Shown: positions 8,110 to 26,623 of the stretch, in pieces | How positions within the stretch are numbered: the first letter of the stretch is position 1 | Layout of the letters: each line of letters starts with the position of its first letter | From: Aromatoleum bremense | GTDB taxonomy: Bacteria; Pseudomonadota; Gammaproteobacteria; Burkholderiales; Rhodocyclaceae | Direction of reading: 5' to 3' | DNA length: 64,000 nt | NCBI RefSeq assembly: GCF_017894365.1 | Contig: NZ_CP059467.1 | Coordinates: 496,001 to 560,000 of the forward strand | Translations under genes and position numbers: made by a program | Notes under the pieces: model-generated | What the model was told of the DNA's origin: nothing | Seen by the model: only the letters and a program-made list of their open reading frames with translations | Database searches by the model: none

Positions 8110-10041
8110 TTACACCGGCCCGGGAACCGTTTCCATCGCAACACGCAGTGCCGCCGCGTCGTTCGCCGCGTCGGCGTGGAAATCATGCGCCGGCAACATC
8201 TCGCACAGCAACGCGCCGGAAACCGTGTCGTCCTTCAGCAGCGCCGCGGTCACGGCGTGCAGCACGTGACAATGGCGTTCGAGCGTCTCGCGGCACGCGC
8301 GCTGGGCCGCTTCGAGCATCGCGCGCGCTTCGCCCAGCGCCCGCTCCTGGATGTGTGGTCCGACCAGTGCATCGGGCACACCGGCGAGGCTCAGCAGCCC
8401 GAACTGGCTCGAAAACCCCATCGAGCTGACCATTTCGATTGCCAGTTCCGAGGCCCGCTTGAGGTCATCGGCCGCGCCCGACGTCGTGTTGCCATAGCTC
8501 ATCAGTTCGGCCTCGCGACCAGCCAGCAGCATCGACAGCCGCGCCTTCAGTTCACGCTCGCCATACAGCGGCACTTCGTCCTCGCGGCTGACGAAGGTCA
8601 CGCCGAGCGCCTGGCCGCGGGGCTCGATACTGATGCGCTCGACGCGGCCCGCTTTCAGCGCATGGGCGACCAGCGCGTGGCCCGCTTCGTGCACCGCAAT
8701 GCGCTCGCGGTGCGTTTCGGTGAACGCGGCTTTGAGGCTCGAGACTTCGCCACCGAGCTGATGCGTCTCGAGCGCACGGTGCAGGTGAGCCTGGGTCACC
8801 GAAGCGCTGCCCGACTCCGCCGCCAGTACCGTCGCGCGATTGACGATGTTCGTGATGTCGGCGTGCGACAGGCCACTGCTCGCGCGGGCGAGCGCCTCCG
8901 CGTCGATCCGCCCGGAGTCGGCGCGGACGCGGGTCAGACACAGCTCGAACAGTTCGCGGCGGTCGTGCACGGTGGGCAGGTTGACGCGCGCGACGAGGTC
9001 GAAACGACCGGGGCGGCGCAGCGCTTCGTCGACGTTGCCGACGTGGTTCGTCGCGCCGATGACGATGACGTTGTCGGACGTCGAGAAACCATCCATCTCG
9101 ACGAGCAGCTTGTTGATGATGCGATTCTCTTCGGACTGCCCGCCCTCGACTTTCGCACCACTCGCGCGCTTGCCGATGCCGTCGAACTCGTCGATGAAAA
9201 TGATGCAGGGCGCATTCTTGCGGGCGGTCGCGAAGAGTTCGCGGACTTTCGCGATGCCCTGGCCGTAGAACATGCTCGAAAAATGCGAGCCATCGACGGC
9301 GATGAAATTGGCCTTGCATTCGCCGGCGAGTGCGCGTGCCAGCAAGGTTTTTCCGGTTCCCGGCGGGCCTTCGAGAAGCACGCCGCGCGGAGGCTTGGCC
9401 CCGAGCGCGAGATATTTCTGCGGGTCGCGCATGAAGGCAGTCACCTGCTGCAGCGAGGTTTTCGCATCCGACGCGCCGACCACGTCGACGAAACTCGTCT
9501 GCGGCTTCTCGGCGAGCCTGGCTTTCGCGCCGCCGCCCATTGCACCTTGCCGCAGCAGATAGACGCCGAGCACCACCATTGCGGCGACCGTCAACAGCGT
9601 GAAGAGCCGCTCGAGCACGCTGCCCGTGCTGGCGACGATGCGTTCGCCCACCGTGCGCGCGTCCACGCTGATGCGGGTCAGCGCGAAACCCTGCTCCCGG
9701 CTCGCGGTTTCGAGGCCGGCCAGCAGTCCTTCCTCGCCCGCGACGAGCTCGGTGCTGAATTGCTCACCGCTGCGGGTGGTCGCCAGCACGCGCTGGCCGT
9801 CGACCCCGACCGCGGCGATCTCGCCCTGTCGAAGCTTGTCCGCGAAAACCGATGCGTCGAGCGGACGGTCCAGCCACATGTGGGGGCCGGACTCGAACTC
9901 GCGTGCGAGTTCGGTCTTGCCAGCCGTGCTCGGCGCGTGGCTGTGGTAGTCGAACGCGATCCAGCCGGCGACGACGGAGGTAAAAAGGGCGACGGAAAAA
10001 AGGATTTGGACCCAGCGGGGCCACGCAGAGAATAGCTTCAT
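8110..10041 (-). CDS. FtsH-like ATP-dependent zinc metalloprotease (M41), paralogue
   Basis: A 643-residue membrane AAA+ protease. Two helices (about 11-30 and 145-165) flank a periplasmic segment. Next come the AAA module with Walker A GPPGTGKT, Walker B IIFIDEFD and the second region of homology (RRPGRFD), then the zinc site HEAGH and a downstream Asp in SGAADDLKRA. All catalytic residues are present. The ATG at 10041 (MKLFSAWPRW) is chosen because it directly precedes the first helix; the frame stays open further upstream. Divergent N-terminal sequence and an isolated context suggest a second FtsH rather than the housekeeping copy. Confidence 0.88.
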   Translation of the reverse strand: MKLFSAWPRWVQILFSVALFTSVVAGWIAFDYHSHAPSTAGKTELAREFESGPHMWLDRPLDASVFADKLRQGEIAAVGVDGQRVLATTRSGEQFSTELVAGEEGLLAGLETASREQGFALTRISVDARTVGERIVASTGSVLERLFTLLTVAAMVVLGVYLLRQGAMGGGAKARLAEKPQTSFVDVVGASDAKTSLQQVTAFMRDPQKYLALGAKPPRGVLLEGPPGTGKTLLARALAGECKANFIAVDGSHFSSMFYGQGIAKVRELFATARKNAPCIIFIDEFDGIGKRASGAKVEGGQSEENRIINKLLVEMDGFSTSDNVIVIGATNHVGNVDEALRRPGRFDLVARVNLPTVHDRRELFELCLTRVRADSGRIDAEALARASSGLSHADITNIVNRATVLAAESGSASVTQAHLHRALETHQLGGEVSSLKAAFTETHRERIAVHEAGHALVAHALKAGRVERISIEPRGQALGVTFVSREDEVPLYGERELKARLSMLLAGREAELMSYGNTTSGAADDLKRASELAIEMVSSMGFSSQFGLLSLAGVPDALVGPHIQERALGEARAMLEAAQRACRETLERHCHVLHAVTAALLKDDTVSGALLCEMLPAHDFHADAANDAAALRVAMETVPGPV

Positions 10042-10547
10042 CGACGATCCGGGATTCAGCCCCGAATAGGACCGTCGGAGGGTCCGGGCAGGGCCTGCTA
10101 TGTGGCGGCGCGAACCGCCAGGTTCAGCTTCGAGTGCAGCGTGCCGGGCTGTGACCGCCCCGCTGCACCCTCGATTATTGCTACCGCACACGCAGTATTT
10201 TTGTGCGGTGAAGCATTCTTTCCCAGCAGCCATTCGCGAGCAACTTTCGCGCGCCCGGCCGACACGATGACGTTCGCGCAGGGCAGCCTGCATAGCGCCC
10301 CGCGCTGCCAGACTTCAGCCGGCATTACGCCTACGCGTTATGCAGCCGGTTTTGCGACTCCCACCCAGCAACGAAACATGCCGTTACATAATCGACCGTC
10401 GGATAGCCTGGTCATCCGGGTCGCTCCACGGCCGCCGTTCTCGTCAGCTGCTCGTCCTGATCGACGCCGCGATCGTCGAGGCGGTTGGAATCCGGCCGAC
10501 GAAACCAGCTTTTCATTGATTATGCCGGAAGCGATCCGGCGGCGACT
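10042..10547. other. Long intergenic region with one inverted repeat
   Basis: About 500 bp between the end of the amine-dehydrogenase operon and the start of the FtsH-like gene. Overlapping ORFs occur but none has a ribosome-binding site, plausible composition or recognisable domain. The only structure I see is the 8-bp inverted repeat at 10183-10209. No clear intrinsic terminator was found for the operon ending at 10548. Confidence 0.4.
10183..10209. repeat. Inverted repeat ACCGCACA-N11-TGTGCGGT
   Basis: Perfect 8-bp arms (10183-10190 and 10202-10209) around an AT-rich loop. It could be an operator for the FtsH-like gene starting at 10041, or an RNA hairpin. No U-run follows, so it is not a standard terminator. 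Confidence 0.4.
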
Positions 10548-11582
10548 TCAGGCGGGTTGTGCGTGAACGGCGATCTCCGGCCGGCTGCGTTTCTCGGGGT
10601 AATAGCACATGTAACCGCTCGCGCAGTGGCTCGGCGCGGCGCGCAGTCCGACCGCGCATTCGCGGACTTTCGTCTCCGGTTCGCCGTCCTCGATGCGGCG
10701 CAACACCTCATGGACGAGCTCGACACTCTTCACCTTGCGCTCGCTCGCCCCTTCGCGCCCGGCGATCTTCACCGAATGCACGCCTGCCGCATGCATCGCC
10801 GGCATCGCGCACAGGCCGCACGGGCCCCACGGATAGCGGTTCGGCGCGACCGAAAAACCGTTGCCGAAGCGATACCACAGCCAGCGCTTGTAGTCCTGGT
10901 CGTTCTTTTCCAGCCGCCGCAGCGCCCGTTCGGCAGGCGCTTCGCCGCTCGCGGTACGGTATTCGAACTGGTAGTTGTCGATGCAGATCGGTCCCCCCTT
11001 GTTCATCGGCAGATGCACGGTGTGGCACGCGCCCTCCTCGAACACGCAGCCGTCGTTGAGCACGAACGCTTCGATGTCGAGTTCGGGGAGTTCGGTCGCG
11101 ATCGCCGCGATCTCGGCGACGGTGACGTCGCGCGGCAGGATGATGCGGCGCGCGCCGAGCTGCGCGAAAAAGCGCGCCGATTCGACGTTGCGGCAGGTCG
11201 CCACCGAGCTGACGTGGATCGCGAGCTCCGGCACGTTTGCCGCGAGCGAGGCGATCAGCGAGATGTCGGCGACGATCGCGGCGTTACCGCCGATGCTGCG
11301 AAAGTGCGCGGCGATTTCGGTCAGCGCGTCGAGGTGCTGCTCGCCGTATTGCTGCGCGTTGAGGACGAGGAACACTTCGGCATCGAGCGTGTGCGCGTTG
11401 TCGATGACGCGCTCGAGGTCGGCATAGCCATTGAGGTTGCCGAACACGCGGCGATTGACGCCCGAAGTGTTGAAACGCCGGATCCACTCCGGAGGCACGA
11501 CGCCGCAATACAGTTCGCGCGCGCCAGCCCGCACCAGCGGTTCGACTTCGGCAGGCGTGCTGATCGGTGCAGTGATTTTCAT
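10548..11582 (-). CDS. U32-family protein, UbiU-like; putative O2-independent hydroxylase subunit for QHNDH
   Basis: A 344-residue protein of the family named peptidase U32. It has the U32 core motif in EAFVLNDGCVFEEGAC: Cys179 and Cys186 are spaced like two Fe-S ligands of UbiU (C-x6-C). Cys200 and Cys255/258 can supply the other two. It ends in a Cys-rich tail (CASGYMC). UbiU with UbiV hydroxylates ubiquinone precursors without O2; other U32 proteins modify tRNA or rRNA. The ATG at 11582 fits the family N-terminus and lies 19 bp after the upstream U32 gene. As last gene of the qhp operon it probably serves QHNDH maturation, replacing QhpG; that role is inferred. Confidence 0.75.
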   Translation of the reverse strand: MKITAPISTPAEVEPLVRAGARELYCGVVPPEWIRRFNTSGVNRRVFGNLNGYADLERVIDNAHTLDAEVFLVLNAQQYGEQHLDALTEIAAHFRSIGGNAAIVADISLIASLAANVPELAIHVSSVATCRNVESARFFAQLGARRIILPRDVTVAEIAAIATELPELDIEAFVLNDGCVFEEGACHTVHLPMNKGGPICIDNYQFEYRTASGEAPAERALRRLEKNDQDYKRWLWYRFGNGFSVAPNRYPWGPCGLCAMPAMHAAGVHSVKIAGREGASERKVKSVELVHEVLRRIEDGEPETKVRECAVGLRAAPSHCASGYMCYYPEKRSRPEIAVHAQPA

Positions 11583-11601
11583 GCGTGAGGGTTGTTTCAC
11601 T

Positions 11602-12525
11602 CTAGGCTCCCGACAGGACGATACGGCTGACCCAGCCATTCGCCACCGCCTCGGCGATTGCCGCGCTCATGCCCGGCGCGTGGCGGTAATACATCGTGTT
11701 GCCGCGCTGCGAAGTCTGCAGCTCGCGCGTGCCGGGGCGCGCGCCGACTTCGGAGAAGCCGAGGCATTCGCGGCGGCATCGGTGGCCCGGCGAGAATTTT
11801 TCCGGCACATCGAGCGCCAGCGAACCGAGCTTGCAGATGCGGCCCTTCGCGATGTAGCCATACGGCGCGCGCACGCCGACCGGGAAATCGATGCCGGCAT
11901 ACATGTCGGCAGCGCCGAACGGCGGGAAATCGAGTTCCAGGCGGCCGATGCCCAAATTGTCGAGGATCTCGCGGAACGGACCGGCGCGCAGGCCGTTCGG
12001 GTACATGCGCGCCCACGTCGCGGACGGCAGCCGCGGGTCCTTCAGCATCTTCCCGAGCAGCCGCCCGGCGACCGGCCGCAGACCCGGGAATTCGCGCTGC
12101 ACGACGCGCGCGACGCCCCAGTCGTTGACGGTCACTTCGGCGCCCGCGGGCAGGCGCGCGAGCGCGGCGCGAAGCGGCTCGAACAGGCTGTCGCAGGCGA
12201 TCGGCGTGACGAGGCCGAACGTCACTCCCCAGCGCTCGCAGAGGGCCACGGCGCGATCGATCGCCTCGATGCTCGGCAGCAGGTGCTCGCAGAACTCGCT
12301 GCCGAGGAAGAAATGCGTCGGCTCGGCGTCGTCGGGCAGCGTGACGCACTGTCGGGCGTCGCCGAGCCGTTCGAGATAGTCGTCGCGCGTGACACGCTCC
12401 TGGCGCGCGAACGCGGCCAGCTCACGCTCGTCGACGAGCGCAAAGCCAAGCTCGATCGGGCCAGCCGGAGGTTTTGGCGGAATGGAAAAGGTCGGGGTGG
12501 GGGTCGGGGTCGGAGTCGGTGTCAT
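11602..12525 (-). CDS. U32-family protein, UbiV-like; putative O2-independent hydroxylase subunit for QHNDH
   Basis: A 307-residue U32 protein translationally coupled to qhpE (ATGA overlap). After an odd Thr-Pro repeat at residues 2-12 it has the UbiV-type cysteine set. Cys79 in LGSEFCEH matches the UbiV segment LGETVC, and Cys231, Cys250 and Cys254 match the UbiV C...C-x3-C cluster ligands. In UbiV these bind a 4Fe-4S cluster. The pair with the following UbiU-like gene mirrors ubiU-ubiV, but no ubiquinone, yhbT-like or tRNA-modification gene is adjacent and both lie inside the QHNDH operon. Reading it as a radical-SAM-independent, prephenate-type O2-free hydroxylase of the CTQ tryptophan is inference. 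Confidence 0.75.
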   Translation of the reverse strand: MTPTPTPTPTPTFSIPPKPPAGPIELGFALVDERELAAFARQERVTRDDYLERLGDARQCVTLPDDAEPTHFFLGSEFCEHLLPSIEAIDRAVALCERWGVTFGLVTPIACDSLFEPLRAALARLPAGAEVTVNDWGVARVVQREFPGLRPVAGRLLGKMLKDPRLPSATWARMYPNGLRAGPFREILDNLGIGRLELDFPPFGAADMYAGIDFPVGVRAPYGYIAKGRICKLGSLALDVPEKFSPGHRCRRECLGFSEVGARPGTRELQTSQRGNTMYYRHAPGMSAAIAEAVANGWVSRIVLSGA

Positions 12526-13220
12526 GAATCGGTCTCCGCGATTCTTCTGTTTTCGCGCCCCTGCCAGGTGGCAAAGGCCGCGAGGTAGGCAACGAGCCCG
12601 CGAAGGCCCGTGTCGGGGTGCTGCATGAGGTGATTCGCGATGATGCCGGTAAAGCGCGCCGCGGCCATGCTCGCGCCGCCCGGAGCTCCGCCGGGCGCGT
12701 CGGGACAGGTTCCCCACGCGGCGCCGGATGCGGTCGCCGGGTCGAGCCGTGACCATTCGCCGGGAGCGCAGCGCGCATCGCCGCTCACCGCGAGCACGCC
12801 GGGATAACGCGCCGGATATACCGGCGAGCCGCGCGCCGGCGCTGCGGCGACGAGCAGCACGCCCTGTCCCACGGCCCACTCGCAGGCTTCGCGCAGCACG
12901 CGGCGGTCGTCGGCGAGACCGAGGCTCAGGTTGACGACACGGGCCCCTTCGGCGACGCACCAGTCGATCGCGGCGGCGACGAGGCGCGGCGTCGCGGGCC
13001 GGGCGACCGTGGCGACGCGCGCATCGAGCAGGCAGGCGGCCGGCGCCGCACCGAGGACCAGCGCAGCGACGCATTTGCCATGCGGCAGCGCAGGTCCGTG
13101 CGGCGCTTCGCAACGCACGACGCCATCGGACTCGCCGCCGGCGAACTGCACCGCCGCGTGCAGCGCCGTGGGCGACACGCGCTCGAAACCACCATCGACG
13201 ATGCCGACGCGCAGTTTCAT
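12522..13220 (-). CDS. qhpE: QhpE: subtilisin-like protease removing the QhpC leader
   Basis: A 232-residue cytoplasmic serine protease with no signal peptide. The catalytic triad is visible as Asp9 (GIVDGG), His47 (LPHGKC) and Ser184 (GGASMAAARF). In Paracoccus, QhpE cleaves the leader peptide of the gamma subunit QhpC after radical-SAM crosslinking. The usual oxyanion Asn of subtilases (AAGN) is not seen; the corresponding stretch reads VAAAPARG. Start and stop overlap both neighbours by ATGA, showing translational coupling with qhpF and the UbiV-like gene. Confidence 0.88.
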   Translation of the reverse strand: MKLRVGIVDGGFERVSPTALHAAVQFAGGESDGVVRCEAPHGPALPHGKCVAALVLGAAPAACLLDARVATVARPATPRLVAAAIDWCVAEGARVVNLSLGLADDRRVLREACEWAVGQGVLLVAAAPARGSPVYPARYPGVLAVSGDARCAPGEWSRLDPATASGAAWGTCPDAPGGAPGGASMAAARFTGIIANHLMQHPDTGLRGLVAYLAAFATWQGRENRRIAETDS

Positions 13221-14935
13221 ACGGCCCTCAGCAGCGGCGCGGGCGGTCGCGCCGGCGGCTGCTCGACCAGCGCGCCGTCACGCAGCTCGACGACACCGTC
13301 GAGCTCTCCGACGGACGCGAGGTTGTGCGTGATGACGATGCGGGTGCGACCGGCGAACACGCGGTCGACCGCCATGACGATCGCCTGCGCGACCGGCAGA
13401 TCGAGCCCGGAGGTCGTCTCGTCGAGGATCAGCACCGCCGGGTCCTGCAGGATCGCGCGGGCGAGCGCGATGCGCAGGCGTTCACCGCGGGACAGCGCGG
13501 ACGCCGACGCGCCGACCGCCTTGTCGAGGCCCCCCGCGTGGGCGAAGCGCGCGAGACCGGCGAGGTCGAGCGCGCGCAGCAGCGCCGCCTCGTCGGCATC
13601 CGGCGCGACGAAGCGCAGGTTGTCGCGCACGCTGCCGGGCATCAGCACCGGGTCCTGGTCGACGACGACGACGCGCCGGCGCAGTTCGGCGAGATCGAGC
13701 CGGTCGAGCCGCACCCCGTCGAGCAGGATGTGGCCGGCGCCCGGATCGTAATGACGCTGCAGCAGGTCGATCAGCGTCGATTTGCCGGCCCCGGACGCGC
13801 CGATCAGCGCGAGCTTGCGGCCGGCCGGAATGTCGAGCGACGCGCCGTCGAGCACGCGCGCCTCGCCGTAGCCGAAACGCACGTCGACGAGTCGGAGGTC
13901 GCCGCGCACCGGCTGCGCGAGCGCGACCGGCTGCGCCGGCGACGTGACCGTCGGCAATTCAGCGGCCAGTTCGCGGATGCGCTGCAGGCTGACTTTCGCC
14001 CGCTGCCAGCCCATGAAAACGCCCGCCGCGGTCTGCAGCGGACCGGCCGCACGGGTTGTGTAGGCGATGAACGCGACGACGACGCCGACCGTCAGCTCGC
14101 CCGCCGCCGCGAGGCTGCCGCCGACCGCGAACACCAGCAGCACGCCGAGCCCGGACAGGATGCGCTGCACGCCCCCGGCGCCGAGCGAGGCGACCTGCGA
14201 GCGGCGCAGCGCCGCGAAATAATCGCCGTGATGCGCGCGCAGCTCCGCCTCCTGCCGCGCGCCGGCATTCGTCGCCTGGATGAACTTCATTGCGCGCAGC
14301 GATTCGACGAAAAAACTCGACATCGCCGCGCTCTGCTGCCGCACCGCCTGCGCGCTGCGTTCGAGCCACGGCCGCGACCCGAGCAGCGCCGCGACATGCA
14401 GCGGCACCAGCGCGAACACCAGCGCCGTCAGCAGCGGACTCAGCGACAGCATCAGCGCCAGCGCGACGACCAGCGAAAACGCCGCGTTGAGGAGACCCAT
14501 CGGCGCGTCGATCGCAAAACGCTGCACCTCGGCGACATCGCCGTCGAGCCGCGACAGGATCTCGCCGCCGCGGGTGCGCGCGTAGTACGTCGGCGCAAGC
14601 GTCTGGAGGTGGCGGTAGATCTGCTCGCGCAGGCCGAACAGCACGTGCGCGGACAGCTTCAAATACGCGAGCCGGGAAACGGCCTCGACCGCGACGCCGG
14701 CAACAAGCAGCGCGAGGAACGCGCCGCACAACTGCAGCACCACGTCCATGCGCCCGCCGACGATGCCGTCGTCGACCAAGCGCTGCGTGAGATACGGTGG
14801 CAACAACGCGGCGCCCGACGCGAGGAAGGACAGCACGACGATGCCCGCTGCCGCGCCCGCCCGCCCGCGCACCGTCGGCCACGCCCACGCGAGCGCCTGC
14901 AGCGGCAGCGACCCCTTTTTCCGCAGCGCGATCAC
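13217..14935 (-). CDS. qhpF: QhpF: ABC transporter exporting the processed gamma subunit
   Basis: A 572-residue half-transporter: an N-terminal six-helix permease (about residues 25-300) fused to an ATPase. Walker A is GASGAGKST, the signature is LSRGER, Walker B is LILDETT, and the switch His lies in ITHN. In QHNDH loci this exporter moves crosslinked QhpC to the periplasm because QhpC lacks a Sec or Tat signal. It lies 13 bp after qhpB and overlaps qhpE. Confidence 0.9.
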   Translation of the reverse strand: MIALRKKGSLPLQALAWAWPTVRGRAGAAAGIVVLSFLASGAALLPPYLTQRLVDDGIVGGRMDVVLQLCGAFLALLVAGVAVEAVSRLAYLKLSAHVLFGLREQIYRHLQTLAPTYYARTRGGEILSRLDGDVAEVQRFAIDAPMGLLNAAFSLVVALALMLSLSPLLTALVFALVPLHVAALLGSRPWLERSAQAVRQQSAAMSSFFVESLRAMKFIQATNAGARQEAELRAHHGDYFAALRRSQVASLGAGGVQRILSGLGVLLVFAVGGSLAAAGELTVGVVVAFIAYTTRAAGPLQTAAGVFMGWQRAKVSLQRIRELAAELPTVTSPAQPVALAQPVRGDLRLVDVRFGYGEARVLDGASLDIPAGRKLALIGASGAGKSTLIDLLQRHYDPGAGHILLDGVRLDRLDLAELRRRVVVVDQDPVLMPGSVRDNLRFVAPDADEAALLRALDLAGLARFAHAGGLDKAVGASASALSRGERLRIALARAILQDPAVLILDETTSGLDLPVAQAIVMAVDRVFAGRTRIVITHNLASVGELDGVVELRDGALVEQPPARPPAPLLRAV

Positions 14936-14948
14936 GCGGCGGCGCTCC

Positions 14949-16022
14949 TCAGCGCCTGACGACCCGCAGCCATCCGATCGACTGGTCGGCCCCGCCCGGC
15001 ATCATGATCTCGCCGGTCTTCTCGAGCGTCTCGGCGTCGTGGATGACAATCTTGTCGAGCGCCCCGCCGACATAGACTTCCTTGCCGTCGCCCGAGATGT
15101 TGACGGCGTAGAACGTCTGCTCGAGGTCGACGCGCTTGATCAGCTTGCCGGTTTCGGTATCGACTTTCGACAGCTGGTTCATAACGAGGAAAGCCTCGTT
15201 ACGGGCAACCGGATTGATCACCGACGAGAACATCGCCGTCTGCGCGTTCTCGAACTCGACCGTCTTCAGCGTCTCGGCGTCGAGGTCGAACACCGCGATG
15301 CCAGCCTTGAACGCCTCGGCGGAATCGGGCGCGGCATCGGTCTTGGCGACGAAGTACGGGGTGCTCAACGCGCGCGCCTGCTCGAACGTTCCCCACATCG
15401 CCAGGACGTCCGGCTCGCCCAGGCCGGGACGGTCCCAGTGGCGGATCGGGTAGGTCTTCTCGATCGTCCCGCTGCGGATGTTGAACAGGTACATGTCCCA
15501 GCCTAGCGCGAGCAGGTGGTCCTTGTTGCCCGTCGGCGCAAGCAGGCTGATGCGGCGCGGTGCCGGGAACGTGCGGCGCGGCTTCGCGCCCACCCCGTCG
15601 GCGGTGTCGAACACCGCGATGTAGGTGTCCTCGACCTGGTACTCCGAGCGCCCGAGCACGACTGGCGCCTGGTGCACGTACAGCTCGCGCCCGTCCTCGC
15701 TGACCGCCGCGGCGAAGAAGCCCTTGATACGCTTGCCGGGACTCGAGAAGTCGGCGCGGAACACCTGGTTGCCGGTATCGAGGTCGATGCCGACGACGCT
15801 TTCCATGCGGTTGGTCAGCACATAGGCGACCTTGCCGTCCTTCGGCACCGTGATCGTGCCCGGCACGCCGTCGCCGGGGATCCTGACCGAACGCACGACT
15901 TCGCGCTTGGCCGGATCGATGACGTGCAGGGTGTTCGGCCGCGTGACGGTCAGCAGGTATTCCGCAGCGATCGCGGACGCCGACGCCGCGACGCAGCACA
16001 GCGCAACGAGCAGTTTCTTCAT
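14949..16022 (-). CDS. qhpB: QhpB: beta subunit of quinohemoprotein amine dehydrogenase
   Basis: A 357-residue periplasmic seven-bladed propeller. The signal peptide is at residues 1-20 (cleavage after ASAIAA), followed by repeated YVTN-like blades such as LHVIDPAKREVV, VVGIDLDTGNQV and VYVGGALDKIVIHDAE. In the known enzyme the beta subunit forms part of the active site around the CTQ of the gamma subunit. The ATG at 16022 gives a clean signal peptide; the longer frame upstream overlaps qhpC and is discarded. Confidence 0.9.
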   Translation of the reverse strand: MKKLLVALCCVAASASAIAAEYLLTVTRPNTLHVIDPAKREVVRSVRIPGDGVPGTITVPKDGKVAYVLTNRMESVVGIDLDTGNQVFRADFSSPGKRIKGFFAAAVSEDGRELYVHQAPVVLGRSEYQVEDTYIAVFDTADGVGAKPRRTFPAPRRISLLAPTGNKDHLLALGWDMYLFNIRSGTIEKTYPIRHWDRPGLGEPDVLAMWGTFEQARALSTPYFVAKTDAAPDSAEAFKAGIAVFDLDAETLKTVEFENAQTAMFSSVINPVARNEAFLVMNQLSKVDTETGKLIKRVDLEQTFYAVNISGDGKEVYVGGALDKIVIHDAETLEKTGEIMMPGGADQSIGWLRVVRR

Positions 16023-16027
16023 GATGC

Positions 16028-16348
16028 TCAATCTCCCGGGAACAGGGTCTGCAGCTCGCGCCAGTCGCGCAGTGCCGAGTTCTTGCCGTCGGTCCAGTCG
16101 CGCGCGCTGTTCAGGCCGTCGGCGAGTTGCGCCGGCCACCAGCACGGATCGGTGCAGCCGTAGAGATCCGCCTCCATCGGCTGGCACAGGCTGGCCAGTC
16201 CGCCGAAAGCGTCGATCTCCCAGCCCGGATCGAAAGTCGTCGTGCAGCCGACGACGCTGCTCATCAGCTGCACTTCCTCGCCGTTGCCTTCCTGCACGGC
16301 GTGTTCGAGCAGCTGTGCCTTATGGTTGAGGGCTCGCAAGCGTTTCAT
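16028..16348 (-). CDS. qhpC: QhpC: CTQ-bearing gamma subunit precursor
   Basis: A 106-residue precursor, coupled to qhpD by an ATGA overlap. Residues 1-28 form a leader without signal-peptide character. In the core, every crosslink position known from the P. putida/Paracoccus enzyme is conserved in spacing: Cys35-Glu44, Cys55-Asp61 and Cys69-Asp77 for thioether bridges, and Cys65-Trp71 for cysteine tryptophylquinone. The block [12 protein letters not shown] carries the cofactor. Crosslinks are made by QhpD, the leader is cut by QhpE and the product is exported by QhpF. Trp71 must additionally receive two oxygen atoms. Confidence 0.95.
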
Positions 16349-17778
16349 TGTCTGGCACTCCTTTGTTCGTTGGAGGCGTTGAAATACGCCGGATTGGCGA
16401 TTGCGATCTCGCCGAAGGCTTCGAGGCCGAACGCGATCCAGGCGCGGATCTGCTCGCAGTACTCGAAAGTCGGCAGGAACGGATCGCCGTAGCGGGAATA
16501 CGATTCGTGGTAGCAGCCGCCGGCGCACAGGCTTCGTGCCGGGCACGTCCGGCACGCGGCGTGCGGGTTCTGCGCGGCACTGACGAAGTCGGACAGCGAC
16601 TCGCGTGCGATGCCGCTCGTCACATCGCCGAAACCCGAGAGGTCGGAGTCGGAGCCGGTGAAGCGGTGGCACAGCGAGATCTTGCCGGTCGTGCCGACCG
16701 CGAGCAGGCCGACGCCGGCGCCGCACGGCAGCACCTTGCGCGTGCCCATCCACAGGTCGGTCATCAGCTGGTGCATGTTGCCGAAACCGTGACGCCGGCC
16801 GCGCTTGGCCTCGCCGACGTATTCGCGGCCGAGCGCCTGCATCGCCGCGAACACTTCGTCGAGTTCCTGCGGCGACAGCCCGACCGGGGAATCCGGCCCC
16901 GCGGTCGCCGGCGCGAAGCCGACCTCGAAGAAGCCGAGCTCGTCGTGCAGGTGCCGGTAAATGCCGGCGACATCGATATTGCCCGAGGCGAGCGTCACGC
17001 GGGCGCCGACCGGGCGCGACTTGTAGCGTTCGAGCAGGCGCTGCACGCGCATCGCGACCGTCTTGTAGGTGCCGCCGCCGGCAATCGTGCGGCGGTGACG
17101 GTCGTGCTGCGCTTCGCCGCCGTCGATGCTGACGGTGATGCCGAAGCGATGCGCATCGAGGAAATCGATGACGTCGTCGGTGAGCAGCGTCGCGTTGGTC
17201 GTCAACGAAAACTCGACGTCCTTGCCGGCGGCCGCGGCCTTCTCCTCGGCGTATTCGACGAGGTCGCGGATCACCGCGATGCGCGTCAGCGGCTCGCCGC
17301 CGAAGAACACCACCGCGACACGCTCGTTCTCGCTCGCTTCGGCGAGCAGCAGGTCGATCGAGCGCGTGCCGGTCTGGTAGTCCATCACCGACGAGTTCTT
17401 CGGCGAAGTCAGGTCCTCGCGGTAGCAGTAGCTGCAGCCGAGGTTGCAGCCGGTCGTCAGCGTCAGCACGAGCGTCTTCAGCGGCGAGCGCTCGACCAGC
17501 CGCGGCGGGATCTCGTAGTGCTTCGGCTGCGGCGCGACGATCCCCAGCTCGATGAAGTCGCTGAGACTGTCGCACAGCTCGCCCGGCGAATAGCGCCCGT
17601 CAAAGCGCGCCTGGATGTCCTCGGCGGCGACTGCGGGCGTCGACTCGAACAGTCCGAGCAGGTCGGTCGCGGCCGGATCGAGCTCGAAGATCGACGTCGT
17701 CGGCACGTGCAGCAGGACATGCCGGCCGCCGGAGCGGATCGAACGATAGTTGTGCGCCTGCACCTGTAATGTCGTCAC
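16345..17778 (-). CDS. qhpD: QhpD: radical SAM enzyme forming Cys-Asp/Glu thioether bridges
   Basis: A 477-residue cytoplasmic radical SAM/SPASM-type maturase. The SAM cluster motif C-x3-C-x2-C is CNLGCSYC (Cys111, 115, 118), followed by the glycine-rich FFGGEPL. The C-terminal auxiliary cluster region has [14 protein letters not shown] and another Cys about 18 residues on. An N-terminal domain of about 100 residues resembles a peptide-recognition (RRE-like) region. It makes the intrapeptide thioethers in QhpC. It starts 12 bp after qhpA. Confidence 0.95.
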
Positions 17779-17790
17779 GGGATGTCTCCT

Positions 17791-19422
17791 TCAGCGCAGC
17801 GGTGTCGGGTTCCAGCGCTGCGCGACCACCATCAGCTGGCCCTTGCCGTTCAGCGTCTGGTCGCCGTCGGCAACCGTCGCGATGACGTGCAGGTTGCCGA
17901 CGTTGTTCATGCCGCCGCGCAATGGATTGGGCCCGGCAAAGGACGGCACGAACTGGCCGTGCGGCGCCATGTGCCCGGCGTAGCGCGCGTCCTCGTCATG
18001 GCGCGCCCGGTCGTCGAACGGCTCGGTCGACCACGTCGCGGGGACGCTGCCGAGGCGGATGTCGTCGTCGGTGCCCGGTTTGCCGTCCGCACCGTTGAGG
18101 AAGGCGATGGCATCGAACTGCGCGCTCATCGGTGCGACGGTGCCGCCGCCGAGCCGCGCGACCGCGAACGCGGGCTCGACGCGCACTGCGTCGAAGCGAT
18201 TGAACACCGCCACGGTCTGGGCCGACTCGCGGCCGCCGACGACAACCTTGCGCACCCCTTCCGGCGCATCGGCCGCGACGCGGACGCGCACTTTCAGCCC
18301 GCCGGGCGATGTGCCGAGCCATTCGACGACTTCGATGCCGGGGCCGAAGTCGACTTTCGCGTCGAGCGCGACGCCGGCGAGCGTCAGGTCCGCCGTCGCC
18401 CCACTGCGCAGCATCCGCGGCGTGACCGAGACCAGCTCGTTCTTCACCGCGTCGTCGGCGCGCACCGCTTCGAAGCGGGCCCCGATCTCGTCGGCGCCCT
18501 TGAGGAACCAGCGTCCCGACATGTGCGAACCGTCCGGGCTCAGTGCGAAGATCGAGCGCGTGTCCTCGTTGCCGAGCTTCGCCGAGCCGCGCCATTCATA
18601 GCCGGTGTAGACGATCGCGTCGCCCTGCCCGCGCACCGTGTTGCCGGCGCCAAAGCGCAGCTCGTAGCTGACTTCGTAGCGATCCGGCCCGGCTGCACGC
18701 GCCGTCATCGTGCCGGTGTACGCCCCCCAGCCCGGACGCTCGCCGGCGACGACCCAGCTCCCCGTCGCGGGGCGGTGCTTCGCGCTGCGCCATTCGCGCC
18801 AGGCCGGCGTGTCCTTCGGATACAGCGCCGCCAGCCGCACCGGCAACTGGTCGCGGGCGATCTCCCACCAGTTGCGGTCGCGGCCCATCGCCGAATATTC
18901 CGCGCTCGGGAACTGGCCCAGGTGAGTGTGCATCAGCTTGCGCCATTCGCCCTCGTCGCGCCGCTGCAGCGCGACGCGTCCATAGCTGTGGCAGCGTCCG
19001 CACATCTGCGCGAGCTCCTCGTCGGGCGCCGTGTCCTGCATGTTCGGCCGGCGCTCGGTGAGGGGACGGTAGGGTGTACTCTCCGACGGCGCGAGGCCCT
19101 GCCGGTCGGCGAGGTACTTGACGATCGTCTGCCGTTCGCCGGGCGTCAGCTCGACCTTGTGCCAGATGCCCATGCGCACGACCGTCATATCCCAGCCTTC
19201 CGGGCTCTTGCGCATCTCGGAGATGCGCGTCAGCTTGCCGTTGTCCAGGTGACAGGCGCCGCACTTCGCCTCGATCAGCCGCTGTGCCGCGGCGTCACCG
19301 TTCGCCGCGTGCGCCGCACCCACGAGGCCCGTTGCGACGGCCAGCACGCCGGCGATCCTTGCACCACACTGCATCGCATCGCGAATCCCGTCGCGAACCC
19401 CTTCGCGAAACGCCTCGCTCAT
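17791..19422 (-). CDS. qhpA: QhpA: dihaem alpha subunit of quinohemoprotein amine dehydrogenase
   Basis: A 543-residue periplasmic subunit that carries electrons from CTQ to a soluble acceptor. The signal peptide is about residues 1-39 (cleavage in GAAHAA). Two haem c motifs are visible: CGACH (54-58) and CGRCH (141-145). The remaining ~350 residues are beta-rich, as in the known Ig-like domains of the alpha chain. The ATG at 19422 has a GAAGG ribosome-binding site and gives a normal signal sequence; the frame is open 49 codons further upstream, which would bury the signal. It heads the qhp genes, 82 bp after the TerB-like gene. Confidence 0.93.
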   Translation of the reverse strand: MSEAFREGVRDGIRDAMQCGARIAGVLAVATGLVGAAHAANGDAAAQRLIEAKCGACHLDNGKLTRISEMRKSPEGWDMTVVRMGIWHKVELTPGERQTIVKYLADRQGLAPSESTPYRPLTERRPNMQDTAPDEELAQMCGRCHSYGRVALQRRDEGEWRKLMHTHLGQFPSAEYSAMGRDRNWWEIARDQLPVRLAALYPKDTPAWREWRSAKHRPATGSWVVAGERPGWGAYTGTMTARAAGPDRYEVSYELRFGAGNTVRGQGDAIVYTGYEWRGSAKLGNEDTRSIFALSPDGSHMSGRWFLKGADEIGARFEAVRADDAVKNELVSVTPRMLRSGATADLTLAGVALDAKVDFGPGIEVVEWLGTSPGGLKVRVRVAADAPEGVRKVVVGGRESAQTVAVFNRFDAVRVEPAFAVARLGGGTVAPMSAQFDAIAFLNGADGKPGTDDDIRLGSVPATWSTEPFDDRARHDEDARYAGHMAPHGQFVPSFAGPNPLRGGMNNVGNLHVIATVADGDQTLNGKGQLMVVAQRWNPTPLR

Positions 19423-19504
19423 TTGCGCCTTCACATCGCCCTCCGTTTCCACCCGTGTGGTTCTTCGTGTTGAGGAATGCTCATCGTTGCGCCTTTCATC
19501 CTTG

Positions 19505-19987
19505 TCAGTTTCCGCCGGCACCATCGTCGAGCAGGCCGGCGCGCGCCACCGCGGCGGCTCGCGCCGCATCCGCGGCTTCCGGCCCGATCTCGAGCTGCAT
19601 CGCGAGCCGGCTTATCAGGCGGTCCTCGAGACCGACGAGATCGCCGTCGGCATAGGCCACCTCCCATAACATCGTCAGCACCTCCTGGCGCTCGGCCGCG
19701 TCGAAGCCCGCACGCACCGCTTCGCCGAACTCCCAGTCGTCGAGCACCTCGGCGAAACGTTCGTCGGCGACGGTCACGAGCTGGCGTGCGACGTCCTCCG
19801 TCAAGCCGAAATGTTCGTGCAGCAGGCGTCCGACGGCCGCGTGTTCGCGCTCGGTGGCGCGGTGGTCGATGTACATCGCTTCGAGCAGCAGGACCGCGAC
19901 GGCAATATGGCGTCGCTCGAACGGACCGGCTTCCAGTCCTTCGGGCTGGAGCTCGCCGGACAGCAGCGCCATCAGTTTTGTCAGCAT
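19505..19987 (-). CDS. TerB-like (TerB domain) protein
   Basis: A 160-residue, acidic, all-helical protein. The repeated pattern (AVAVLLLEAMYIDHRATEREHAAVGRLL, then LTMLWEVAYADGDLVGLEDRLISRLA) with Asp and Glu at the helix ends is typical of the TerB fold, a possible divalent-metal site. It has no signal peptide. TerB domains are known from tellurite resistance but are widespread as unspecified accessory proteins; nothing else of a ter locus is here. Its place inside the amine operon suggests a link to enzyme assembly or transport, but no function can be assigned. Confidence 0.7.
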   Translation of the reverse strand: MLTKLMALLSGELQPEGLEAGPFERRHIAVAVLLLEAMYIDHRATEREHAAVGRLLHEHFGLTEDVARQLVTVADERFAEVLDDWEFGEAVRAGFDAAERQEVLTMLWEVAYADGDLVGLEDRLISRLAMQLEIGPEAADAARAAAVARAGLLDDGAGGN

Positions 19988-20021: not shown

Positions 20022-21002
20022 TTAGCGCGCCGGCACGAGCCGCTCGACACCAAGTTGTCCGGCCACGATGACGCCACCGCCGGCCGGGGCTGTCATCACC
20101 GCGGCGAGGTTCTGCCGGTCGGGCCGGATTTCCAGCTGCAGCGGGCCGCTGCCGTTGCCGCGCAGCACCACGCCCCCTGCCCCGACGACGATCACGCCGC
20201 CATCAACCGTCGCAATGCCGGCGGTCAGCGACTGCTCGGTACCGGTATCGCGCGCCTGCCAGGTGTCGCCGCCGTCCCGGCTCGTGATGACCTTGCCGCT
20301 CATGCCGAGCAGCACGACTTCGCCGCTGCTGCGCTCGAATCCGCTCCATAGCGAGCCCGAGACGCCGCTCGCGAGCTTCGTCCAGCTCGCGCCGCGATCG
20401 GTCGAGCGGAACGCGAGGCCGCTTTCGGCCGCGACGAACAGCGTGCCGGTGCGGGTCGAGAACAGCTGGTTGAGGTGCAGATCGGCATCGCGGCCGCTGC
20501 CCACCGCCATCGGCGCCCAGCTGCGGCCGCCGTCCGCGGTGCGGAACGCCACGCCGTAGGCGCCCGTCACGTAGCCCCGCTCGGCGTCGAGGAAATGCAC
20601 CGACAGCAGCACCGGGCGCTCGTCGAGCACCTCGAGCAGTTTCCAGCTCGCGCCGCCGTCATCGCTGCCGAGGATCACGCCACCGTGGCCGACCGCCCAG
20701 CCGTGCCGCTCATCGACGAAATGCACGGCCGTGAGCAGCGCACTGACCGGGCCTTCGGCCTGCTGCCAGGTATTGCCGTCGTCAGTCGAGCGCACGACCA
20801 TGCCATAGTCGCCGACCGCGACGAGCGCCTTGCCGGCGCGTGCGATGCCGGTCAGCGGCACCTTCGCCGCCAGCCTTGCCTTCATCGCCGGGACGGTCGT
20901 CGTGATGCTGTCGGGACCGGCCGGGGCGGCCGCGCAGGCGAGTGCGCCCATCGCCAAGCCGAGTGCCACGATGCCGCGCGCAAATCGGTTCGATTTTTTC
21001 AC
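20022..21002 (-). CDS. Ycf48-like periplasmic beta-propeller
   Basis: A 326-residue exported protein with repeated blades of the type STDDGNTWQ / SDDGGASWK / TADGGRSWA / SRDGGDTWQ, as in Ycf48/HCF136 photosystem II assembly factors and BNR-like propellers. The signal peptide is at about residues 5-25. A GAGGAG at 21009-21014 lies six bases before GTG 21002 but directly abuts the ATG at 21008, so GTG is the better start. In non-phototrophs such proteins often accompany RND exporters with DUF1302/DUF1329 partners, as here (RND gene ends 10 bp before). Confidence 0.8.
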   Translation of the reverse strand: MKKSNRFARGIVALGLAMGALACAAAPAGPDSITTTVPAMKARLAAKVPLTGIARAGKALVAVGDYGMVVRSTDDGNTWQQAEGPVSALLTAVHFVDERHGWAVGHGGVILGSDDGGASWKLLEVLDERPVLLSVHFLDAERGYVTGAYGVAFRTADGGRSWAPMAVGSGRDADLHLNQLFSTRTGTLFVAAESGLAFRSTDRGASWTKLASGVSGSLWSGFERSSGEVVLLGMSGKVITSRDGGDTWQARDTGTEQSLTAGIATVDGGVIVVGAGGVVLRGNGSGPLQLEIRPDRQNLAAVMTAPAGGGVIVAGQLGVERLVPAR

Positions 21003-21012
21003 GGGCATCTCC

Positions 21013-23376
21013 TCAATGAGCCATCAGCGGCGCGCGTACCGGGCCGCGGCGCGGAATCAGCATGTCGATCGTGACCGCCAGCGCCGGCAGCAGCGTGATC
21101 GCCATGATCATGTTCATCATGAACATGAAGGTCAGCAGCATCCCCATGTCGGCCTGGAACTTGAGCGCCGAGAACGACCAGGTCGCGACGCCGATCGACA
21201 GCGTCACCGCGGTGAATACCGTCGCCACGCCGATCTCGCGCAGCGCCTGCTTGAACGCCGTGACGATGTCGTCGCCATGCGCGAGGTGCATCTGCAGGCG
21301 GTTGTAGATGTAGAACGCGTAGTCGACGCCGATCCCGACCGCCAGCACCATCACCGGCAAGGTCGCCACCGTGAGCCCGATGTCGAGCTCCTTCATGAAC
21401 CAGTAGCCGAGGAAGGTCGCCAGCGTCAGCGGCACGCAGCACGCGACCATCGCGCGCCAGTCGCGATACACCGCGAACACCAGCACGAGGATCGTCGCAT
21501 ACACGTAGAGCATCATCGGCAGTTCCGAATGCTCGACGACTTCGTTCGTCGCCGCCTGCACGCCGGCGTTGCCGCTCGCCAGCCGCACGGTCACGCCGTC
21601 GAACGGCTGCATCTCGCGGAAATGCTTCACCGCGGCGACGACCTCCTTGATCGTCGAGGCCTTGTGGTCGGCGAGGTAGAGATTCACCGGCAGCAGCGTG
21701 CAGTCGGCGTTGAAGAGCCGCATGCCTTCAGGCACCTGGCGCACCGCTTCGCCAAGCGTCAGTTCCTCGCGCGGCAGCGCGGCCCATTTCGGGTTGCCCT
21801 CGTTGACCCCGGACGCGGCGAGCTTCGTCATGCTCGGCAGCGACTGCGCCGACAGCACGCCGGGCACGTTCGCGAGATACCACGTCAACCGGTCGACATA
21901 GCTCATGACGTCGTGGCGGTAGCACCCGTCCGCAGGCGATTCGACGACCACCGTCAGCAGGTCCAGACCGAGCCCGTAGCGCCCGACGACCGCTTCGACG
22001 TCCTGGTTGTAGCGCGAATCGTCGTGCAGTTCCGGTGCGCCCGGCAGCACGTGGCCGACGTGGCGGCCCTGGCTCTGCCACACCGCGATGCCCATCAGCA
22101 CCAGGCACACCAGCGTGCCGATCGCGGCGTTCCTCGGGTTCGCAATATGCACGCCGAGCGACGACATCATGCGGTTGCGCATCGCCTCGACCTTGCCTGC
22201 ACGCAGCACGAAAGCGTCGTCGAAGCGGAAATAGCTCGCGACCACCGGCAGCATGATCAGGTTCGTGACGATCTTGTAGGCGACGCCGACCGAGGCGGTG
22301 ATCGCGAGCTCGCGGATCATCGGGATCGGCACCAGCACCAGCGTCGCGAAACCGACGAAGGCGGTGATCAGCGCGAGCGTGCCGGGCACCAGCAGGCCGG
22401 TGAAGCTGCGGCTCGCGGCGGTGTAGCCGTCGGCGCCGTTGATGACTTCCTTGGCGATGTAGTTCACCTGCTGGATGCCGTGCGACACGCCGATCGCGAA
22501 CACCAGGAACGGCACCAGGATCGCGAGCGGGTCGAGGCCGAAGCCGAGCAGCGTGATCGTGCCGAACTGCCACACCACCGACACCAGCGAACAGGCGAGC
22601 GGCAGGAAAGTCAGCAGCAGCGAGCGGGTGTACCAGTAGACCGCCGCGGCAGTGAGCAGGAACGCGAGCGCGAAGAACTCGATGACGCTGGTCGCCCCTT
22701 CCGAGATGTCTCCCATCTGCTTGGCGAAGCCGATGATGCGGATGCGGATGTCGTCGTCGCTGAAGGTGTCGCGGATTTCGCGCTCGAGGCGCTCGCTGAA
22801 CTCCTGGTAATTGAGCCGTTCACCGGTCTGCGGATCGGGATCGGCCAGCTCGGCGACGACCATCGCGGACGACGAATCGTTCGCGACGAGGCTGCCGACG
22901 AAGCCGCCGACGATCGTGCGCTCGCGGATCGCCGCGATGTTGTTGGGGGTGAGCGCCTTGACGGTCACGTCGCCGCCGATCACGTCCTCGGCCCTCATGC
23001 CCTCTTCGGTGATCTGCACCGCCCGCGCGTTCGGCGTCCACAGGGACGTCACCGTGCGGCGGTCGACACCCTTCATGAAGAACACCGCCTGCGTGACGTC
23101 GTGGAGTTTCGTCAGCGCCTTCTCGTTCCAGATGTCACCGTTCTTCGCCTCGACGGTGACGATGATGCGGTTGGCGCCGAACAGCACCTCGCGGTACTGG
23201 TTGAAAGTCTGGATGTATTCGTGATCCTGCGGCAGCTGCTTGTCGAAGCCGGCACTCATCTCGAGGCGGGAAGCGAACACCGCCATCACCACGGTGAAGC
23301 CAAGCAGCGCGAGCAGGATGGTCAGGCGGTGCCGGAAGCACGCCTGCTGCAATGCACGCACCAGTGTCTCGATCAT
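21013..23376 (-). CDS. RND/MMPL superfamily exporter
   Basis: A 787-residue inner-membrane protein with the RND duplication: a helix near residue 20, a large periplasmic loop, helices about 225-400 (block LDPLAILVPFLVFAIGVSHG), a second loop, and helices about 620-775 (block LTVATLPVMVLAVGIGVDYA). It belongs to the hydrophobe/lipid exporter branch rather than the tripartite drug pumps; no periplasmic adaptor is adjacent. The neighbours (Ycf48-like, DUF1302, DUF1329) form a recurrent proteobacterial module thought to move hydrophobic compounds across the envelope. Substrate unknown. Confidence 0.88.
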   Translation of the reverse strand: MIETLVRALQQACFRHRLTILLALLGFTVVMAVFASRLEMSAGFDKQLPQDHEYIQTFNQYREVLFGANRIIVTVEAKNGDIWNEKALTKLHDVTQAVFFMKGVDRRTVTSLWTPNARAVQITEEGMRAEDVIGGDVTVKALTPNNIAAIRERTIVGGFVGSLVANDSSSAMVVAELADPDPQTGERLNYQEFSERLEREIRDTFSDDDIRIRIIGFAKQMGDISEGATSVIEFFALAFLLTAAAVYWYTRSLLLTFLPLACSLVSVVWQFGTITLLGFGLDPLAILVPFLVFAIGVSHGIQQVNYIAKEVINGADGYTAASRSFTGLLVPGTLALITAFVGFATLVLVPIPMIRELAITASVGVAYKIVTNLIMLPVVASYFRFDDAFVLRAGKVEAMRNRMMSSLGVHIANPRNAAIGTLVCLVLMGIAVWQSQGRHVGHVLPGAPELHDDSRYNQDVEAVVGRYGLGLDLLTVVVESPADGCYRHDVMSYVDRLTWYLANVPGVLSAQSLPSMTKLAASGVNEGNPKWAALPREELTLGEAVRQVPEGMRLFNADCTLLPVNLYLADHKASTIKEVVAAVKHFREMQPFDGVTVRLASGNAGVQAATNEVVEHSELPMMLYVYATILVLVFAVYRDWRAMVACCVPLTLATFLGYWFMKELDIGLTVATLPVMVLAVGIGVDYAFYIYNRLQMHLAHGDDIVTAFKQALREIGVATVFTAVTLSIGVATWSFSALKFQADMGMLLTFMFMMNMIMAITLLPALAVTIDMLIPRRGPVRAPLMAH

Positions 23377-23434
23377 GTTGGGTATCCGTCAGGCCGGCAC
23401 GGCGGAAAGGTTCCGCCGTGCCGGCGCTCTCTGG

Positions 23435-25216: not shown

Positions 25217-25243
25217 TGATTTTCTCCCTTGAGTGGGCGGCGG

Positions 25244-26623
25244 TCAGCGTTCGCCGCGGCGACGCATTTCGTCCTGCGTGAAGTTCGCGGCCGTAACCCG
25301 GCCGTCCTTCGCGGCGGTCAGGTCGAGCACCTCGCCTTCCGCGGTCCAGTTGTCGACGACGTAGCGGCGCGCGACGAGGTCGTACATCTGCGTCTCGTAA
25401 GTGATGCACGCACCGACGTCCGGCGCCGCCCACAGGCTGCCTTCCTGCACGCGCCACAGGTTGCCCTTGGCGTCGTACATGTCGACCTGCAGCAGGGCCC
25501 ACGAATCCTCATCGAAGTGGAACACGCGCTTCGCGAACGAATGACGCTTGTCCGGCTTCACCGTCGCCTCGACGACCCACACGCGGTGCGGCTCGTAGCG
25601 CATGAGATCGCGTTTGACATACTCCTGGCCGAGCATGTCCTTGAACTTCTGCGACTTGTCGATCAGCTTGTACGAGTTGTACGGGACGAACATCTCCTTC
25701 TTGCCGACCAGCTTGTAGTCGTAGCGGTCGAGCGCGCCCGTGAACATGTTGATCTGGTCGACGAAGTACAGGTTGTCGAAGCCGGCGACCTGGTTGTCGT
25801 ACGCGAAGGTCGGCGAACGGCGTACGCGGCGCTGTCCCGGGAAGTAGATCCACGCGTCCTGGGGCTTGTCCACGTACGTATGGACGAGGTAGCCCTCGCC
25901 GGCGCGCGACGGCGGCGTCAGCACGTCGTACAGCAGCTTCGCCTCGACGCTGCCGACGTCCGCCGGACCGGTCACCTTCGGGTCGTTGAACGGATACATC
26001 TCGTACGCCCACTGCTTGTTCTCGACGTAGGAGCCGTCCTTCTCCGGCATCAGCGCCGCGATCTGCGCGCGCCGGCCCAGACCGGTGTAACGCAGCTTGA
26101 AGTTCCACATCGCTTCGGCACCGGTTTTCGGAATCGGGAACGGGATGCCGGCGCCGAACACCTGTTCGAGCTGCCAGCCGTCGCCGCCCAGCTTCGCGCC
26201 CGTCGCGTTCTTCTTCGTCTGCTCCGCGACGAAATCGGGCACCGGACAGCTGCGGCGGCTCGGATATACGTCCATCCGGTAGCCCTTGTAGGCCTTGATC
26301 AGCGCAATCTGCCCGGCCGACAGCTTGTCGGCGTATTTGTCGACATTCGACGCATCGATCGAATAGAGCGGCTTGTCGTTCTTGAACGGGTCGAGGTGGC
26401 CCGGCTTCCAGCCGGCGGGCGCTTTCGTCATGCCGCCGGTCCAGGCGGGAATCGAGCCGTCCTGGTTGGCTGCGGCTTCGGCGCCGACCGGCGTCAGGTT
26501 CTTGCCGAGTGCGGCTGCTTCCGCCTCGGTAGCGGCCGCCCGCACCGCCGAGCTGCCGACGAGGGCCGCCACGGCGAGACAGATAAGGCCCAGGCGGGGC
26601 GGTTTGATGGTCGTTCTGGTCAC
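25244..26623 (-). CDS. DUF1329 exported lipoprotein-fold protein
   Basis: A 459-residue periplasmic protein of the DUF1329 family (LolB/outer-membrane lipoprotein-sorting fold). The signal peptide ends near residue 30. The conserved stretch NLTPVGAEAAANQDGSIPAW and the block AWIYFPGQRRVRRSPTFAYDNQ are typical. The GTG at 26623 is chosen since a GAGGAG lies six bases upstream and the signal peptide follows; there is no closer ATG. It is the first gene of the amine-dehydrogenase operon, 339 bp from the divergent AraC regulator. Confidence 0.88.
   Translation of the reverse strand: MTRTTIKPPRLGLICLAVAALVGSSAVRAAATEAEAAALGKNLTPVGAEAAANQDGSIPAWTGGMTKAPAGWKPGHLDPFKNDKPLYSIDASNVDKYADKLSAGQIALIKAYKGYRMDVYPSRRSCPVPDFVAEQTKKNATGAKLGGDGWQLEQVFGAGIPFPIPKTGAEAMWNFKLRYTGLGRRAQIAALMPEKDGSYVENKQWAYEMYPFNDPKVTGPADVGSVEAKLLYDVLTPPSRAGEGYLVHTYVDKPQDAWIYFPGQRRVRRSPTFAYDNQVAGFDNLYFVDQINMFTGALDRYDYKLVGKKEMFVPYNSYKLIDKSQKFKDMLGQEYVKRDLMRYEPHRVWVVEATVKPDKRHSFAKRVFHFDEDSWALLQVDMYDAKGNLWRVQEGSLWAAPDVGACITYETQMYDLVARRYVVDNWTAEGEVLDLTAAKDGRVTAANFTQDEMRRRGER

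Follow-up and report, generated by a model that had tools for sequence, protein, structure and literature searches.

Title: A U32-type gene pair in the qhp operon of Aromatoleum bremense is a candidate oxygen-independent replacement for QhpG in CTQ formation

Introduction

The known CTQ-making step of QHNDH needs O2, yet Aromatoleum aromaticum EbN1 reportedly degrades amines anaerobically by means of this enzyme. Anaerobic breakdown of aromatic amines is reported to start with two QHNDHs in this strain, and the abstract of that study is said to state that CTQ maturation needs no O2. Which protein could then oxygenate the CTQ tryptophan? A 64,000-nucleotide stretch of the A. bremense genome (the window) offers a named candidate answer, a pair of genes, V and U, at the end of its qhp operon. 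We propose, with a probability of about 0.8, that V–U is an O2-independent replacement for QhpG, namely a dedicated Fe–S, UbiU/UbiV-like pair oxygenating the CTQ-precursor residue Trp71 of QhpC. We know of no enzymology for this pair.

The aerobic route is described in the literature. A Paracoccus qhpG mutant makes QHNDH without the quinone, and purified QhpG inserts two atoms from O2 into Trp (PMC7876137); this agrees with the initial annotation of the window, which had QhpG add both oxygens from O2. QhpD is the crosslinker of QhpC, and its relatives form the three Cys–Asp/Glu thioethers of that protein (PMC7876137). UbiU–UbiV are O2-independent hydroxylases with one [4Fe–4S] cluster each (PMC6747719; PMC10470549) and use a non-O2 donor even in air (PMC10470549). 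The functions characterized for U32 members lie in the synthesis of ubiquinone and the modification of RNA, and prephenate is the named oxygen source for anaerobic ubiquinone, direct enzymology being still missing (PMC11574389).

Results

The minus strand of the window carries a complete qhp operon between 10548 and 19569, in the order A-D-C-B-F-E-V-U (Table 1). Successive genes are separated by +12, −4, +5, +13, −4, −4 and +19 bp (negative values indicate overlaps), and the stretch from E to the end of U contains no gene besides V and U. QhpA, QhpB, QhpD and QhpE each scored above their NCBIfam cut-offs (TIGR03908, TIGR03907, TIGR03906 and NF049966); for qhpA an alternative start at 19422 is possible. 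At the DNA level the operon shares 95% identity with the one in Aromatoleum anaerobium and 94–96% with the one in A. buckelii, and qhpF is 99% and 97% identical, respectively, to its operon counterparts in these species. A gene for an M41-AAA (FtsH-like) protease (8110-10293, same strand) lies immediately downstream of U. Upstream of qhpA, a cluster of YCF48-like, MMPL/RND, DUF1302 and DUF1329 genes occupies 20022-27082.

Table 1. Genes of the qhp operon in the window, listed in operon order.
Gene	Product	Position	Strand	Remarks
qhpA	QHNDH alpha subunit, haem protein	17791..19569	−	TIGR03908, E 1.7e-234; PF09098/09099/09100/14930
qhpD	Radical SAM/SPASM maturase	16345..17778	−	TIGR03906, 784 bits (cut-off 453)
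qhpC	Gamma subunit, CTQ precursors Cys65 and Trp71	16028..16348	−	PF08992, E 4.4e-43
qhpB	Beta subunit	14949..16022	−	TIGR03907, E 1.4e-155
qhpF	ABC exporter	13217..14935	−	PF00664 and PF00005
qhpE	Subtilisin-like leader protease	12522..13220	−	NF049966, 228.9 bits (cut-off 165)
V	UbiV-like partner, 307 aa, Cys79/231/250/254	11602..12525	−	4-bp overlap with the end of qhpE
U	U32 protein, 344 aa, Cys179/186/200 and 255, 258, 320, 326	10548..11582	−	PF01136, E 1.3e-44

The leader of QhpC is 28 residues long, so that Trp71 of the precursor corresponds to Trp43 and Cys65 to Cys37 of the mature protein, which we take to be the residues paired in CTQ; the numbering of Trp71 used previously is correct. 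Cys65, Trp71 and the other Cys, Asp, Glu and Trp residues checked are the same in all 31 V-linked and all 22 QhpG-type relatives. The latter come from 20 V-negative genomes and two plasmids (the V status of their host genomes lying outside the search), and some of the former come from genomes which also bear QhpG.

Starting with the ATG at 11582, U contains Cys179-x6-Cys186 and eight further cysteines, in line with the UbiU-type C-x6-C plus additional Cys noted initially. This start, 19 bp past the V stop, is most likely the correct one rather than the upstream ATG at 11639, because its position is conserved among the relatives. U passes the PF01136 cut-off of 22.4 with 152.6 bits. Its best NCBIfam match is UbiU (NF047963), at 84.5 bits, far below the equivalog cut-off of 440. 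In a tree, the 28 qhp-linked U rows separated from 18 UbiU rows with support 100/100, and the separation held for 25 rows after removal of long branches; the U clade was likewise distinct from TrhP and RlhA with full support. By phylogeny U thus falls apart from UbiU, whereas a place among the general ubiUV genes had been named initially as a refuting outcome. V and U appear not to be members of UbiU and UbiV. Three cysteines of U (C179, C186 and C200) align with the UbiU ligands C169, C176 and C193, whereas the fourth ligand, C232, has no counterpart, the aligned position being Leu235. Compared with UbiU, C255 and C258 (conserved in 51/51) as well as Cys320 and Cys326 are conserved extras. 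Nine cysteines of U are kept across its clade (49 to 51 of 51), which exceeds the need of one [4Fe–4S] cluster.

Starting with the ATG at 12525, V contains cysteines at 60, 79, 96, 111, 231, 250 and 254. It matched no family in Pfam or NCBIfam and did not reach the cut-off of PF01136. It is called ‘U32’ here because of profile–profile comparison, the predicted fold and its cysteines. The profiles of V and U aligned with a score of 56.2 (maximum of 60 shuffles, 21.4). The comparison of V with UbiV by hhalign gave a probability of 1.7% and a score of 24.1, above the shuffled maximum of 20.1, yet a reversed TrhP control alignment scored 29.5; by sequence, the tie of V to UbiV is weakly shown. The UbiV-type cysteines attributed to V are present: in the profile alignment C79, C231, C250 and C254 are in register with the UbiV ligands C39, C180, C193 and C197, and all four are kept in 53/53 named relatives. 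The last three form CX18CX3C, as against CX12CX3C in UbiV. Of the earlier description of two coupled U32 genes closing the operon, the coupling stands, as does the assignment of U through PF01136, but V is not recognized as U32 by either family database.

The genome of the window consists of one contig of 4,376,837 bases, with an estimated completeness of 100%. Elsewhere it contains three more PF01136 genes, which are TrhP-like, UbiU-like and UbiV-like, the last two being adjacent. As separate UbiU–UbiV genes exist, the pair of the window is not the sole UbiUV of the cell. For QhpG we used as reference an annotated FAD-dependent monooxygenase adjoining qhp genes on a Pseudomonas nitroreducens plasmid. 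A search of this 4.38-Mb genome with the single sequence detected no QhpG (12/12 candidates scored), nor did an 11-sequence profile at 1e-15 (best 21 of 55 candidates scored). The absence of QhpG, first claimed for the window, therefore extends to what is detectable in the whole genome.

To survey the occurrence of V, named genome contigs were scanned with the V alignment via two short patterns, an incomplete scan which returned at least 55 loci. They include loci in Aromatoleum, Thauera, Azoarcus, Herminiimonas, Glaciimonas, Magnetospirillum, Phaeospirillum, Sterolibacterium, Colwellia, Litorilituus and Pseudomonas. U follows immediately after V in 51/55; the exceptions are L030, L033 and L061, with no U in the stretch, and L060, where U precedes V. 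At 36 of the 55 loci qhp genes lie beside V (37 by script, minus L060, a generic ABC match), and E is directly ahead of V on the same strand at 21. V–U thus accompanies qhp genes across several lineages of Proteobacteria and in varied gene orders. Nineteen loci show no qhp genes, and at five of them (L042, L051, L053, L056 and L060) the sequence extends at least 5 kb on either side.

QhpC was found in 46/50 V-bearing genomes searched, the remaining four giving no match. At E ≤ 1e-20, a QhpG-like gene was detected in 17 of these 46 and none in 29; an eighteenth QhpG-like match came from a V genome without a QhpC match. The V-bearing isolates without QhpG at this threshold include A. anaerobium, A. 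buckelii, A. diolicum, A. toluvorans, Herminiimonas sp. CN and Magnetospirillum sp. SS-4. In the QhpG-less V operons (window, A. anaerobium, Magnetospirillum), QhpA, C, D, E and F are retained.

Two loci from metagenome-assembled genomes lie apart. In a Planctomycetota genome (L042:9917-11708), V–U (42%/46%) directly follows a DUF5703/GH95-like gene, with an MTTB-like gene close by; this genome, one of the four V-bearing ones without a QhpC match, gave weak QhpG-like matches only. Here the pair may act on a different substrate, or the locus may result from faulty binning or assembly. In an Omnitrophota genome (L060:8892-10777), a distantly related U32 pair arranged as U-V (28%/24%) has no convincing qhp gene in the stretch and may hint at further U32 pairs.

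To avoid choosing genomes by V, a second sample was drawn by family and started from QhpC. QhpC was present in 44/297 genomes of the window's family, 64/248 of the family of G058, 8/295 of the family of G175 and 7/398 across the phylum, giving 118 distinct genomes. From their named kin, the window's family was read as Rhodocyclaceae and that of G058 as Pseudomonadaceae. Eighty genomes were examined for QhpG and V: all 44 of the window's family, 8/8 of family f55, G324, G304, and 26/64 of the family of G058, these 26 hand-picked for genus spread and odd cases. For two of the 26 (G793 and G872, both with V and QhpG) the QhpC coordinates were the same as those of known V carriers, so their choice was not blind, and the 50 V-bearing genomes of the first survey overlap the 80. 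Per genome, the best 21 (QhpG) or 29 (V) candidates were scored. The QhpG cut was chosen post hoc: the weakest accepted genome matched at 2.6e-70, the next whole-gene matches at 1e-28 or weaker. G541 (1.7e-28) was counted as lacking QhpG because equally weak second matches occur alongside strong QhpG. G688, with weak QhpC and V, was counted as V-positive.

Among the 80 genomes, 21 have V only, 10 have both V and QhpG, 48 have QhpG only, and one, 73% complete, has neither. V is thus present in 21/22 QhpG-less and in 10/58 QhpG-bearing genomes (Fisher P = 8e-11; 2.4e-6 within the window's family, both values ignoring kinship). Of the 73 genomes at least 90% complete, 18 have V only, 10 both, 45 QhpG only and none neither. 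In the window's family, comprising 17 genera, 21 genomes have V only, eight both, 15 QhpG only and none neither; eight genera are V-only, seven QhpG-only and two mixed, and no genus is without either. The predicted mutual exclusion of qhpG and the pair is therefore borne out as a largely complementary distribution. It does not hold strictly, because 10/58 QhpG-bearing genomes carry V, corresponding to QhpG in 10/31 of the V-bearing genomes. None of the 36 genomes outside the window's family is V-only; the evidence there therefore rests on the named genomes of the V-first set. NarG is commoner with V (22/31 genomes) than without (14/49). At L106, L107, L108 and L118, divergent QhpG-like flavoproteins (about 30–40% identical) directly adjoin qhpA.

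Strain EbN1 corresponds to G546, in which a stretch of a 207,355-base contig is 100% identical to plasmid NC_006823. It has two qhpC genes, and V–U is present at both qhp loci. The first is a window-like operon (V 95%, U 96% identical), near which no match to QhpG was found. The second (L155:2177-15320) contains, clustered with V–U, a QhpG of a divergent type (about 30% identical). This single QhpG could in principle serve both loci, though not without O2. In the six genomes of genus g218, the sole QhpG matches are of a strength similar to that of this divergent type.

V–U remains with qhpC even in a strongly diverged operon of the window's family, that of G688 (L157, G688:C49:1-8000), which has the order A-D-C-B-V-U. 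Identity to the window is 38% for QhpC, 30% for V and 39% for U; QhpC is longer (150 aa) and retains the CWW motif. Neither E nor F was detected in the 8 kb examined, and no QhpG was found in the genome. The operon may represent a new QHNDH subfamily.

Discussion

The case for V–U as a replacement for QhpG is computed from the operon coupling, the co-inheritance with QhpC, the complementarity with QhpG, the U clade, the conserved cysteines and the unchanged CTQ residues. These results support the interpretation offered initially, that the pair hydroxylates Trp71 of QhpC. The hydroxylation itself (once or twice) we infer, as we do the heterodimer, the [4Fe–4S] clusters, the identity of the oxygen donor and the sequence of the steps. 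QhpD would crosslink QhpC, and after or together with this step U–V would oxygenate Trp71 without O2 in place of QhpG. We favour this step because V-only species without QhpG keep the Trp and the pathway, and because the pair resembles O2-free hydroxylases. CTQ could thereby be formed anaerobically, for instance during denitrification. If U–V behaves like other U32 oxidases, its oxygen would come from prephenate or a related compound instead of O2.

In its full form we regard the following as fairly likely: U–V represents a new class of protein hydroxylase working without O2, in which a U32 heterodimer installs both CTQ quinone oxygens on the Trp of the crosslinked peptide, probably with prephenate-derived oxygen, U perhaps having a second Fe–S site, and some species keep QhpG together with U–V while others have only U–V. 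Escherichia coli retains both aerobic and anaerobic ubiquinone hydroxylases, and species with both QhpG and U–V may be comparable.

The number of oxygens cannot be read from sequence, and U–V could act in CTQ biogenesis with partial oxygenation only, for instance adding one hydroxyl, with the second oxygen supplied by water in a subsequent oxidation, or acting chiefly to accept electrons under anaerobic conditions. QhpG stands out by inserting both oxygens, whereas MauG, LodB and GoxB act on mono-hydroxy-Trp (PMC7876137), and the extra conserved cysteines of U might bind another cluster used in electron transfer. But UbiUV is thought to perform the ubiquinone ring hydroxylations itself (PMC6747719; PMC10470549; PMC11574389), and the window operon has no additional gene from E to the end of U; we consider a partial role unlikely. 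It is quite improbable that the pair acts elsewhere in QHNDH maturation (on haem, leader removal or export) while an unseen enzyme replaces QhpG. The 10 of 80 genomes which keep QhpG and V–U might point to an added rather than a replaced function, but the complementarity is specifically with QhpG, and A, C, D, E and F are kept in QhpG-less V operons such as those of the window, A. anaerobium and Magnetospirillum.

Still more improbable is a variant UbiUV for ubiquinone or a small quinone, placed in the operon since QHNDH feeds electrons to the respiratory chain. UbiU is indeed the best NCBIfam match of U; however, all 18 UbiU rows fall outside its clade, the genome has a separate UbiU and UbiV, and quinone synthesis is not expected to track the absence of QhpG. 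We give almost no credence to an accidental neighbourhood in which U is a common U32 protease or an enzyme of tRNA or rRNA and V is an unrelated reading frame. Source annotations, where given, do label U as ‘U32 family peptidase’ or something close to it, and V as ‘hypothetical protein’, but an accident is contradicted by the QhpG/V distribution and the U tree, by the recurrence of V–U with qhp genes across lineages and gene orders and the 4-bp E–V overlap, and by the four invariant cysteines of V and the QhpC in 46/50 V genomes.

If the replacement of QhpG by V–U is true, it would be the first case, as far as we found, of a U32 hydroxylase that modifies a residue of a protein. The reach of the U32 oxidases would then extend to proteins, V would gain both a family and a function, and a compact system with a single short protein as substrate would become available for a hydroxylation chemistry that is poorly understood. 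In the open-access papers searched, we found none linking QHNDH or CTQ with U32, and among papers since 2019 that name QHNDH no title points to such a link. The class of chemistry is known; the clade and the proposed class of substrate are new.

Of the known systems, UbiU–UbiV is similar in having two adjacent genes, for a U32 protein with CX6C and a partner with a far-upstream Cys and CX3C, and in being an alternative to flavin monooxygenases. The qhp pair differs in its order (V-U, not U-V), its qhp linkage and its proposed substrate, a protein Trp; U stands outside the UbiU clade, without the fourth ligand and with four extra conserved cysteines, and V, in contrast to UbiV, is unrecognized by Pfam and NCBIfam. 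With QhpG the pair shares the operon context, the proposed substrate (crosslinked QhpC, mature Trp43) and the presumed product, but it belongs to an unrelated protein family, and QhpG needs O2, from which both of its oxygens come (PMC7876137). TrhP and RlhA are also U32 proteins, with O2-independent hydroxylation linked to prephenate (PMC11574389); they form separate clades and act on RNA, and no pairing of them was observed in this analysis. MauG, LodB and GoxB likewise oxygenate or oxidize a protein Trp to a quinone cofactor, but these are di-haem or flavin enzymes and not members of U32 (PMC7876137).
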